64,000 bases of DNA, taken from Limnovirga soli. GTDB lineage: Bacteria; Bacteroidota; Bacteroidia; Chitinophagales; Chitinophagaceae. Under the pieces are notes generated by a model, which was given only the letters and a program-made list of their open reading frames with translations, was not told where the DNA came from and searched no databases. The position numbers and the translations under genes are program-made. Shown piece by piece: positions 10,207-16,093 of this stretch. Every line of letters starts with the position of its first letter. Within the stretch, counting starts at the first letter, position 1. Location: positions 248,001 through 312,000 of the forward strand of contig NZ_WHPF01000004.1 of the NCBI RefSeq assembly GCF_013106755.1, in the 5' to 3' direction.

Positions 10207-10293
10207 TTGCGTCGCACTCTTGTGCTGTAGAATGCTCATCTGCTGTTTAAGAAAAGCTTATACATGTTCCCAAAGTACAAGAGTGCGACGCAA
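10207..10293. repeat. Interspersed core repeat pair, copies 5 (forward) and 6 (reverse)
   Basis: TTGCGTCGCACTCTTGTGC at 10207-10225 faces GTACAAGAGTGCGACGCAA at 10275-10293. A CCCGGC boundary lies upstream, and GTAAAGC then GTGGCTAATA lie downstream. The arms could fold into a long hairpin between the carboxypeptidase and the asparaginase-like gene. Confidence 0.9.
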
Positions 10294-10877: not shown

Positions 10878-10954
10878 CATGTCTGTTGTAAAATAGCAGC
10901 ATATTACATACAGAATGGTTAACTTTAAAACTACTGTTGTTAAAGCAGGTAAAT

Positions 10955-11767
10955 ATGTTACAGGGATTGCTGCTTACTATTAATCCAACCATACTATACA
11001 TTGCCATTGGCTATATAGCTGTTGTGGTGCTTGCCTACTTTATACAGGAGCGGTTTATATTTAAGCCCGAAAAACTTTCCAGCGATTTTACCTACAAATA
11101 CGATATTCCTTTTAAAGAGCTTTTTTTTGAAATAGAACAGGGCGTAAGCATCAACGGATTACATTTTTATTGCAACAAACCCAATGGATTAATTCTGTAC
11201 CTGCATGGCAATACCCGCAGTATAAAAGGTTGGAGCAAATATGCAAAAGATTTTTACCGGTATAATTATGATGTAGTGCTTATAGATTATCGCGGATTTG
11301 GCAAAAGCACCGGTAAGCGCAGCGAAAAAGACATTTTAAAAGACATACAGTTTGTATATGATACTTTGGCTGTGATGTATCATGAACATCATATACTGGT
11401 GTATGGCCGTAGCATGGGTAGTGGTTTTGCAACAAAAATTGCTGCCGATAATAAGCCCAGGTACCTGATTATAGATTCGCCTTATTTTAGTTTTAAAAAA
11501 GTTGCTGAGCGTTATATTCCCTTTTTGCCACACCAATGGGTATTGAGGTATCATTTGCGTACCGATAAATGGATTACCAAAGTAAACTGCCATACCTATA
11601 TTATTCATGGTACCAAGGATTGGTTAATACCTATTAGCCATAGCGAGCAATTGCAGCAACTTAACCCACATAAAATTACCCTGATACGCATTCATGGTGG
11701 CGGACATAATAACCTGCCTTCTTACCCAGAGTACCATAATTTTATCAGGGATATTTTATTGTATTGA
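10955..11767 (+). CDS. Membrane-anchored alpha/beta hydrolase (first of a tandem pair)
   Basis: The 270-residue protein starts with one N-terminal transmembrane helix (about residues 10-28, ILYIAIGYIAVVVLAYFI) followed by an alpha/beta-hydrolase domain. The oxyanion region is LYLHGNTRS, the nucleophile is Ser153 in YGRSMGSG, and the acid and base are probably in HGTKDWLIP and GGGHNNL. It resembles the BEM46/ABHD13-type family. The ATG at 10955 is preferred to an in-frame TTG at 10937. The next gene encodes a paralogue of the same length 24 bases downstream, so the pair is a tandem duplication in one operon. Confidence 0.88.
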   Translation: MLQGLLLTINPTILYIAIGYIAVVVLAYFIQERFIFKPEKLSSDFTYKYDIPFKELFFEIEQGVSINGLHFYCNKPNGLILYLHGNTRSIKGWSKYAKDFYRYNYDVVLIDYRGFGKSTGKRSEKDILKDIQFVYDTLAVMYHEHHILVYGRSMGSGFATKIAADNKPRYLIIDSPYFSFKKVAERYIPFLPHQWVLRYHLRTDKWITKVNCHTYIIHGTKDWLIPISHSEQLQQLNPHKITLIRIHGGGHNNLPSYPEYHNFIRDILLY

Positions 11768-11791
11768 TATTTGCACCATAACAACAGCAGC

Positions 11792-12604
11792 ATGCGTAAC
11801 AAAATAAGAAAATGGGTAGTGGTAATTGTGGGTCTGTATATTGTAATTGGTGCTGCACTGTATTTTTTTCAGGATAAGCTGTTGTTGCATCCAACACCGT
11901 TGGCGGCCAATTATCAGTTTCATTTTCAGCAAGCTTTTACTGAGATAAACCAGCCTTACGATCATACTACCAGTTTTAATATTATCCGTTTTGCAGCCCA
12001 GGGTTTGGTTCGCCATGGTGCGGTAATTTATTTTCATGGTAATATGGAAAATATAAACCACTATGCTGCATACGCACCGAATTTTACCAAAAATGGTTAT
12101 GATGTTTGGATGATGGATTACCCGGGTTATGGTAAGTCAACCGGCCCGCTAAATGAAGCAATCTTATATACAGAAGCACTGCAGGTGTATAAAATGGTAA
12201 GGGGCGCAGGCTATGCTACGGATAGCATTATTATATACGGAAAGTCATTGGGTACGGGCATTGCAGCCCAATTGGCCAGTATAAGAGATTGTAAAAAATT
12301 AATCCTGGAATGCCCCTATTACAGTATAGAACACCTTGCTGGTGCATATGCATGGATGTATCCGGTATCGTGGATGTTGCATTATCATTTACCCACCTTT
12401 CAAAACCTTCAAAAAGTTACAGCACCTGTTATTATTTTTCATGGTACCAAGGATGGTACGGTGCCCTTTAGCAATTCCTTGTTATTGCAATCTACCGTAT
12501 TTAAAAAGGGTGATACGCTGTTTCCTGTAAATGGTGCAGACCATAATAATATTTTCGATTTTACACAAGCCCGGCAATTGCTGGATAGTGTGTTAATACA
12601 ATAA
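11792..12604 (+). CDS. Membrane-anchored alpha/beta hydrolase (second of a tandem pair)
   Basis: This is a 270-residue paralogue of the preceding gene, with the same plan. A single N-terminal transmembrane helix (WVVVIVGLYIVIGAALYFF) precedes a hydrolase domain with IYFHGNMEN, nucleophile Ser152 in YGKSLGTG, HGTKDGTVP and a terminal GADHNN. The corresponding motifs in the upstream copy differ at many positions, so the duplication is old. The substrate is unknown; related proteins act on small esters or lipids. The start is the ATG at 11792; a TTG at 11771 would extend it back by seven residues. Confidence 0.88.
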   Translation: MRNKIRKWVVVIVGLYIVIGAALYFFQDKLLLHPTPLAANYQFHFQQAFTEINQPYDHTTSFNIIRFAAQGLVRHGAVIYFHGNMENINHYAAYAPNFTKNGYDVWMMDYPGYGKSTGPLNEAILYTEALQVYKMVRGAGYATDSIIIYGKSLGTGIAAQLASIRDCKKLILECPYYSIEHLAGAYAWMYPVSWMLHYHLPTFQNLQKVTAPVIIFHGTKDGTVPFSNSLLLQSTVFKKGDTLFPVNGADHNNIFDFTQARQLLDSVLIQ

Positions 12605-12659: not shown

Positions 12660-12898
12660 CCCCGATAATTTCGGGGCTCGGTTCAGGGTTCGGAGCTTTG
12701 GGCGGCAGGCGGGGAGTGATGTTTATTACGCCATTTCTGCCGCCATTATAACAAACCGTACAAGAGTGCGACGCAAGTAAAGCCCCAACAAAAACAACTG
12801 CCGGGTACAAAAAAATCAGCAGATAATACTTCAATTGGCCATAATAAGACTTGCTTGTCATATGCTACTTACCAACTTGCAATGCTGGCTAGTAGCAT
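12660..12898. other. Gap with two small dyads around repeat copy 7
   Basis: The 413-base gap 12605-13017 has no gene that I can support. CCCCGATAATTTCGGGG (12660-12676) can fold as a six-base-pair stem and may end the hydrolase transcript, although no T-run follows. ATGCTACT at 12862-12869 is complementary to AGTAGCAT at 12891-12898. Repeat copy 7 lies between them. Confidence 0.4.
12758..12776 (-). repeat. Interspersed core repeat, copy 7 (reverse)
   Basis: Exact core GTACAAGAGTGCGACGCAA followed by GTAAAGCCCC, with the GCCGGGTACAAAAA boundary about 30 bases on. Confidence 0.9.
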
Positions 12899-13023
12899 GA
12901 ACAATTTGTGCATCGCAGATACCAATAGTAAAATAGCTTAGGTAAGCCCACCAAAAATTAACCATGTACATTATAGTATACGCTAACCAAAAAACTATTA
13001 AATTTAAGTATTAAACCGTGCTT

Positions 13024-13524
13024 ATGATTGTTATTATATTGCTTGCACTCATCTTGCTGCTATTGTTGTATTTCTTTATTATAAAACCTTTATTTATGTC
13101 ACAAGTATTAACCCATTACCACTTCAGGGTTGAATGGGGTGGAACCAACATTGGCTTTACGGAAGTATCAGGACTTGATATTGAAGTAGAAGCTATTGAA
13201 CATAGAAATGGCAGCTCGCCGGTGGATAGTGTTGCTAAAATTCCCGGTCTGCGTAAATATGCCAATATTACCCTTAAGCGGAATATTAGTGCCGGAGATA
13301 GCGACTTTTTTGATTGGATTAACACCAAGCTGATGAGCACTATCGAGCGAAGAGATGTAGTAATTTCCCTGCTTGATCAGGAACATACTCCAGTGATTAC
13401 CTGGCGGGCAAGAAATGCTTTTCCCATACAATACCGTGGTCCGGTGCTGCAATCCTGCGATGGCGGTATAGCCACAGAAACCCTTGTGTTGGCGCATGAG
13501 GGGCTAATAGTGGAAAACGTTTAG
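13024..13524 (+). CDS. Phage tail tube-like (T4 gp19 family) protein with N-terminal membrane helix
   Basis: From residue 25 on (SQVLTHYHFRVEWGG, then TEVSGLDIEVEAIEHRNG and PGLRKYANITLKR) the protein closely matches the T4 gp19-like tail tube proteins of contractile injection systems. Such proteins normally begin at the internal ATG (13096 here). Upstream in the same frame is an uninterrupted, very hydrophobic stretch of about 20 residues, so the full product of 166 residues would be membrane anchored. No sheath, baseplate, spike or AAA gene is nearby. Alternative starts are a GTG at 13018 and the ATG at 13096. Its role is unknown; it is not evidence of a working injection system. Confidence 0.8.
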   Translation: MIVIILLALILLLLLYFFIIKPLFMSQVLTHYHFRVEWGGTNIGFTEVSGLDIEVEAIEHRNGSSPVDSVAKIPGLRKYANITLKRNISAGDSDFFDWINTKLMSTIERRDVVISLLDQEHTPVITWRARNAFPIQYRGPVLQSCDGGIATETLVLAHEGLIVENV

Positions 13525-13608: not shown

Positions 13609-13647
13609 AAACAGCCGAACAAAGTATTTGCATTTGTTCGGCTGTTT
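13609..13647. terminator. Bidirectional terminator between convergent genes
   Basis: AAACAGCCGAACAAA (13609-13623) and TTTGTTCGGCTGTTT (13633-13647) form a perfect 15-bp stem with a 9-base loop. A-rich sequence precedes the left arm and the right arm ends in Ts. It lies between the tube-like gene and the GH3 gene, which converge, and can serve both. Confidence 0.85.
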
Positions 13648-16074: not shown

Positions 16075-16093
16075 TTGCGTCGCACTCTTGTAC
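16075..16093 (+). repeat. Interspersed core repeat, copy 8 (forward)
   Basis: Exact core TTGCGTCGCACTCTTGTAC in the 264-base gap between the GH3 gene and the ABC permease; both genes are on the minus strand. Nothing else is recognisable in that gap. Confidence 0.9.

Follow-up and report, generated by a model that had tools for sequence, protein, structure and literature searches.

Tube proteins are generally regarded as components of injection machines. A lone tube gene, whose product carries its tube domain behind a hydrophobic helix, is found in the window, by which we mean the whole stretch of 64,000 nucleotides from Limnovirga soli analysed here (G000:C34:248001-312000; genome of 5.48 Mb in 77 contigs, 100% complete). 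Its frame runs on the + strand from ATG 13024 to the stop codon TAG 13522-13524 (coding part 13024-13521), and residues 1-24 of the product, counted from ATG 13024, are MIVIILLALILLLLLYFFIIKPLF. The parts of the gene and its borders are listed in Table 1.

Table 1. Features of the lone tube gene and its immediate surroundings (window positions)
Feature	Position	Strand	Basis
In-frame TAA, upstream bound of the open frame	13012..13014	+	Sequence
N-terminal extension of 24 residues with hydrophobic helix; Lys-Pro C-terminal of helix	13024..13095	+	14 aligned orthologues, codon pattern, model
AAAA at -13 to -10 of inner ATG, start-signal-like	13083..13086	+	A counts, synonymous-draw test, F. johnsoniae starts (available text of PMC6847099)
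Inner ATG (residue 25), presumably the tube protein's original start	13096..13098	+	Met in 24/24 ATG-started extensions, also L080/L044
Tube domain with gp19 fold, of the inner-tube type (Alg1) of extracellular contractile injection systems (eCIS)	13096..13521	+	Profile, structure matches, model
Perfect 15-nt inverted repeat with 9-nt loop, between tube gene and convergent glycosidase gene	13609..13647	.	Read in sequence

We found that residues 32-161 match the Pfam profile PF06841 (Phage_T4_gp19), scoring 129 bits (cut-off 28.2; E 1.4e-37). The protein also passed TIGR02241 (102.1 against a cut-off of 62.4), and the NCBIfam equivalogs stayed under their cut-offs (CIS1_fam, 38.1 of 220; CIS5_fam, 80.6 of 260). 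The profile match and the frame itself bear out the sequence-only reading of this locus, which had placed a gp19-like tube domain behind a hydrophobic segment of about 20 residues, with the usual tube-protein start at residue 25. Among solved structures, the AlgoCIS tube (7adz, E 2.1e-47) and the Anabaena CIS tube (7b5h, E 1.2e-42) come nearest. An AlphaFold model built on an alignment of 28 rows (pLDDT 84.8, pTM 0.68) consists of a tube barrel and a helix at residues 2-30, which as a modelled helix is no proof of membrane insertion; Foldseek with this model placed the same two eCIS tubes on top, with 7adz_1a the best and Hcp and T4 weaker. Alg1, the AlgoCIS tube protein of Algoriphagus machipongonensis (7adz), has the same tube fold as the window protein, at 51% identity and a TM-score of 0.76 over the target. 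According to the available text of its description (PMC8894135), however, Alg1 is encoded in a cluster, has a short N terminus and forms 22 stacked hexameric layers, whereas the window gene is alone and encodes a putative membrane helix.

The description of the protein as phage tube-like holds for the fold family, which the window tube shares through PF06841 with T4 gp19, other phage tail tubes and Hcp of type VI secretion, but not for kinship with phages. Phage relatives are at most 30% identical to the window tube, and the Hcp and T4 structure matches rank below the eCIS ones. The tube is matched by 6 of 50,697 phage records, all of Streptomyces phages (28-30% identity), by one viral locus in IMG/VR (29% identity) and, weakly, by one PHROG (PHROG 4542, tail tube, E 1.8e-7). 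On these comparisons, the window tube is closest to eCIS inner tubes of the Alg1 type and not to phage tails. A phage or prophage origin is not supported by this low identity or by the neighbouring genes, which encode hydrolases and a GH3 enzyme. Plasmid carriage was likewise rejected: among 72,556 plasmid records, 103 matched the window tube, the best at 47.8% identity and none at 60% or more. We also rejected membership of a known defence family, as no PADLOC family matched at E<=1.

Upstream of the tube gene lie two alpha/beta hydrolase genes, and downstream lies a convergent family-3 glycosidase (GH3) gene; 414 nt separate the end of the upstream ORF from the first start codon of the tube frame. 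No contractile-injection gene is close to the window tube gene, and no sheath, second tube or baseplate gene stands alongside it. As far as the neighbours tell, the tube gene is alone in its transcription unit. The inverted repeat downstream of it, which is missing from the output of the repeat search and the terminator scan and was checked directly in the sequence, is perhaps a terminator shared by the tube and glycosidase genes. Across the genome, no match to Phage_sheath_1 (PF04984) was found and neither Baseplate_J nor GPW_gp25 was detected; a 391-aa sheath protein used as query likewise had no match in this genome among the matches listed. The claim of orphan status thus holds for the surroundings of the gene and, for these sheath and baseplate families, for the genome as a whole.

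The window genome contains a single gp19-like gene besides the window tube (C9:56424-56825; whole genome searched), and the 20 kb read around it hold no CIS neighbours. This second lone tube (L003, 9904-10371, - strand) is 39% identical to the first, lacks the extension and adjoins a gene that reads as DNA-methyltransferase-like; similar lone copies occur in L092 and L093. The window tube gene is absent from both same-genus genomes, and a search for the corresponding empty site was unsuccessful: G001 has a close glycosidase homologue among other neighbours and a hydrolase pair that ends near a contig end, and in G002 the hydrolase pair is followed by other genes. Orphan tube genes shared neighbours only within one genus and none across genera. 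The window hydrolases are related tandem genes (10937-11767 and 11771-12604, both +), and the pair recurs in G001, G002 and G083. We also observed a dispersed repeat, CAAG[A/T]GTGCGACGCAA, with 28 window copies at <=1 mismatch and 0 in shuffles (for example, at 10207-10222, 12761-12776 and 16075-16090). One of the window copies precedes the tube gene, and exact copies are also present in loci of G001, G002, G083 and G006.

In a survey of the Chitinophagaceae, the window tube matched at least 123 of 394 genomes. We read 96 tube loci, comprising 61 cluster tubes (with a sheath gene or another tube gene no more than 3.5 kb away), 30 distinct orphans and five others (the truncated TM gene L087, two duplicates and two distant paralogues). 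L087 was left out of the extension counts because its contig starts inside the extension, and L062 has just 1.2 kb of upstream sequence. The 30 orphans are of the same type as the window gene: 14 have a TM helix (17-residue hydropathy 3.1-3.6), 11 have a short basic helix (one of which, L080, begins at GTG) and five have neither (L065, from a Niabella aurantiaca record, L066, L086, L171 and L172). By contrast, none of the 61 cluster tubes has an extension, and only 5-10 residues separate their first ATG from the tube core. By these counts, orphan tubes carry the extension as a family trait. In the wider phylum, at least 87 of 395 genomes matched, and among 30 N termini read the extension was present in the window protein, in G006 of the same family and in G700 of another family; a search of 10 genomes of the genus around G104 gave no further orphan of the window type. 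The 28 aligned rows, which include 4 cluster tubes, have 18 invariant columns. Orphan tubes differ strongly from cluster tubes at few residues (positions 32, 89, 137, 141 and 143), the clearest orphan-specific changes being Phe to Tyr at 32 and the loss of Lys 143, which is kept in 60/61 cluster tubes; interpreting these differences would require ring coordinates.

Conservation of the frame points to translation of the extension. The 17 codons 5' of the inner ATG are open in 25/25 extended orphans, as opposed to 6/61 cluster tubes (Fisher 2e-16), and in 1/5 other orphans. Among pairs of TM rows, which share members and are not independent, codon position 2 was the least changed in 11/11, and in-frame identity (11-19 of 22) was above that of both other frames in 11/11. 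Basic-helix pairs (n=5) also had in-frame identity above that of the other frames, with position 2 the least changed in 2/5. The extension of L063/L064 has a pS of 0.68 and a pN of 0.08, and its synonymous sites are not unusually conserved. Right-aligned pairs with unlike linker lengths gave similar pN and pS (L068/window, 0.55 and 0.47) until they were re-anchored at the inner Met. In L073-L075, the extension has 0 synonymous differences at 29 sites, with a core pS of 0.32-0.40. The 108-nt extension in these three species (L073 8807-9328, -; L074 7869-8390, +; L075 8605-9129, -) is the same or 1 base apart, and conservation fades over the 40 or so nucleotides that precede the outer ATG. On this sequence evidence, the extension is conserved and translated in the TM lineage. 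The N-terminal membrane helix that had been read from the window gene is thus corroborated by 14 orthologues in which the hydrophobic extension aligns and by the open frame. Conservation extends to the 25 of 30 orphans in which the extension is open and membrane-seeking and fails in the five that lack it; the suggested repurposing of a tube subunit is likewise supported.

The charges that flank the helix bear on its orientation. Positive charge lies C-terminal of the helix in 14/14 TM rows, and the N-flank is neutral or negative in 12/14 and positive in L070 and L076. Read for the marks of a signal peptide or a lipobox, the window protein has no basic N-region and no Cys C-terminal of the helix, where positive charge is found. 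Taken with the positive-inside rule, the charge C-terminal of the helix would place the tube domain in the cytoplasm and the helix in the inner membrane; the predicted topology of L070 and L076 is ambiguous because of their positive N-flanks. Among the basic helices, 8/11 have a hydrophobic moment above 95% of composition shuffles (not L081, L084 and L173).

The inner ATG retains features of a start codon. In F. johnsoniae, A at -14 to -11 (above all at -12 and -13), -3 and -6 is associated with efficient initiation, with A at -3 a positive determinant, according to the available text of PMC6847099. We found A at -12 of the inner ATG in 24/24 rows, compared with 53/61 cluster-tube starts and 8/24 outer ATGs, and at -13 in 20/24, compared with 38/61 and 8/24. 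At -3 (9/24) and -6 (6/24), A was scarcer than at cluster-tube starts (42/61 and 38/61, respectively). To allow for the encoded amino acids, we compared each context with draws of synonymous codons that followed local usage. Scored by a matrix built on cluster-tube starts, 8/20 non-redundant rows had p<0.05 (combined Fisher 1e-7); when the matrix was built on 162 unrelated starts in the neighbourhood, 8/19 rows did so and 11/19 were singly not significant. The same level was reached by 6.2% of 289 in-frame control ATGs (MWU 3e-6) and 7.4% of 1,520 early hydrophobic windows (MWU 2e-6). The near-copies L064, L074, L075 and L078 and the GTG-started L080 were left out of both tests, and L173 is absent from the 162-start-matrix test only. 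The start-context score was higher at the inner than at the outer ATG in 19/20 non-redundant rows, and outer ATGs also outscored random in-frame ATGs. We found no RNA structure around either start of the window gene (z +1.0) and no Rfam family matching it. Leaderless translation from a fixed-distance Bacteroidota promoter 5' of the outer ATG was rejected, as no consistent element was found, and sigma-70-like sites were no more numerous than in shuffles.

Because the inner ATG is kept and its context is richer in A than the amino acids need, 13096 may serve as a start besides 13024, and use of one start need not preclude use of the other. Use of both would best explain the inner-start facts, although the scarcity of A at -3 and -6 of the inner ATG and the five orphans without an extension count against two products. 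There is an appreciable but minor chance that only the membrane-anchored form is made, the inner Met being an ordinary linker residue that chance or structure has preserved, and the richness of its context in A a product of Lys and Asn codons. Translation of the extension in the TM lineage and the scarcity of A at -3 and -6 fit this alternative, and in basic-helix rows the Met directly follows the helix and could be part of it. It accounts poorly, however, for a Met in 24/24 rows (and in L080 and its copy L044) while the adjoining linker residues vary, for a synonymous-draw test that is significant for the group with amino acids allowed for, and for the lack of synonymous differences in the L073-L075 extension against the pS of the core. 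The converse alternative, in which only the inner start is used, would make the product an ordinary soluble tube subunit and the hydrophobic stretch a leader that is either untranslated or used separately. It draws on the stronger inner context in 19/20 rows and on the five orphans without an extension; the frame open in 25/25, the conservation of the stretch at the protein level and its membrane-seeking character in both lineages make it quite unlikely.

A tree of the core (92 rows, 138 columns) left many forks unresolved; L085 and L090, from the same contigs as L065 and L066, and the distant paralogues L092 and L093 were left out. One branch (support 89/90) unites 23 orphan rows, of which 15 are TM, 4 basic-helix and 4 without extension. 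The remaining seven basic-helix rows branch off close to it, though weakly supported; L172, which has no extension, groups with cluster tubes, and the sister of the window tube is L067 (99/89). The TM and basic-helix labels each require four changes on the tree, and starred branches force 2 and 1 of these changes; anchors were likely, though not provably, gained or lost repeatedly. The core is under purifying selection in both sets of close relatives (L063/L064, pN 0.02 and pS 0.26; L073-L075, pN 0.06-0.08). A lone gene from a multi-gene machine that is absent from same-genus genomes might be taken for the decaying relic of a lost eCIS cluster, but we rejected this as scarcely credible: core pN is far below pS, the 23 orphan rows stand apart from cluster tubes, all 25 extended orthologues read are open, and a shared new extension is not decay.

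We also searched the orphan-tube genomes for other CIS parts. The sheath query matched 6/25 of them and 5/5 eCIS genomes. Five of the six matches are single genes without CIS neighbours, in four contexts (L127 and L128 are alike), and three are Pfam-confirmed; the sixth, in G006, is a 160-aa frame. The lone sheath genes (L127 8959-10443, L128 3902-5386, L129 8947-10122, L130 9177-10388 and L131 8950-10530, all -) encode 391-526 aa, and their host genomes hold the orphan tube elsewhere. Baseplate_J was found in 0/25 orphan-tube genomes and 3/5 eCIS genomes, and gp25, for which CIS and type VI secretion are not told apart, in 7/25 and 5/5. With a sheath in just 6/25 orphan-tube genomes, a sheath is not needed wherever an orphan tube occurs. 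It is very unlikely that the orphan tube acts with CIS parts encoded elsewhere, such as these lone sheaths. A sheath is more frequent in orphan-tube genomes than in family genomes without a tube match among the matches listed (at least 23/271; Fisher 0.024), but this statistic ignores lineage, 19/25 genomes, including that of the window, have no sheath match, and Baseplate_J is missing from all 25, although its model also misses 2/5 eCIS genomes.

The distribution of complete clusters suggests a further alternative, in which the anchored tube domain blocks foreign tubes, of eCIS or related kind, by capping them or assembling with them. It would also poison an eCIS of the host itself, so that the two would not share a genome. 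An eCIS cluster is present in 0/25 orphan-bearing genomes, two of which are <80% complete, versus at least 60/369 others (Fisher 0.02, lineage ignored; 394 genomes). The sporadic presence of the gene, illustrated by its absence from both same-genus genomes, its varied context and its long branches are consistent with such a decoy. We nevertheless consider it unlikely, as the exclusion takes no account of lineage and builds on a minimum count, the PADLOC profiles gave no match and several orphan genomes carry a sheath gene.

The orphan status, the tube fold, the extension translated in the TM lineage and the start-like inner ATG are attested by the sequences themselves, and they lead us to an explanation to which we give about an even chance: an eCIS-derived lone tube whose one gene yields anchored and soluble products that form membrane-tethered rings. 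The single tube gene, of eCIS descent, would probably give rise to two proteins. One, long and starting at ATG 13024, would be anchored in the inner membrane through its N-terminal helix and expose its tube domain to the cytoplasm; the other, short and soluble, would start at the old ATG 13096. Both forms would co-assemble into rings or short tubes, which the long subunits would fix to the cytoplasmic face of the membrane. As for what the rings do, our first guess is a membrane scaffold or gate, and the main alternative guess is interference with foreign contractile tubes. As part of the same explanation, and at the same even odds, the Chitinophagaceae would have turned a lone tube of eCIS descent into a membrane-associated protein.

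Two known systems also link contractile injection to membranes. The thylakoid-anchored CIS of Anabaena (PMC8894136; tube All3324, 7b5h) resembles the window protein in tube sequence and membrane association, but it is a complete machine, whereas here the putative anchor is on the tube subunit itself and no machine was found. CisA of Streptomyces coelicolor is, like the predicted long form, a bitopic membrane protein, and it is tied to a CIS; according to the available text of PMC12237407, it lacks a tube fold, has an unstructured cytosolic N terminus and a C-terminal domain in the periplasm, and is encoded inside a CIS cluster. We found no paper describing an orphan, lone or membrane-bound tube protein in the open-licence PMC literature.

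A broader proposal, which we put forward as tentative and somewhat doubtful, is that domesticated lone eCIS tubes are widespread, with two proteins per frame, one membrane-anchored and one soluble, forming rings or short tubes on the inner side of the cytoplasmic membrane without sheath or baseplate, as a membrane-tethered gate, scaffold or trap for foreign tubes; TM and basic amphipathic anchors would then be two solutions for reaching the same place. If this is true, lone, selected, membrane-anchored tubes in many genera would represent a second life of the tube fold in bacteria and a simple case of the domestication of an injection part. The dual start, if true, would add another case of internal initiation through an A-rich signal, the Bacteroidota stand-in for the Shine-Dalgarno sequence.
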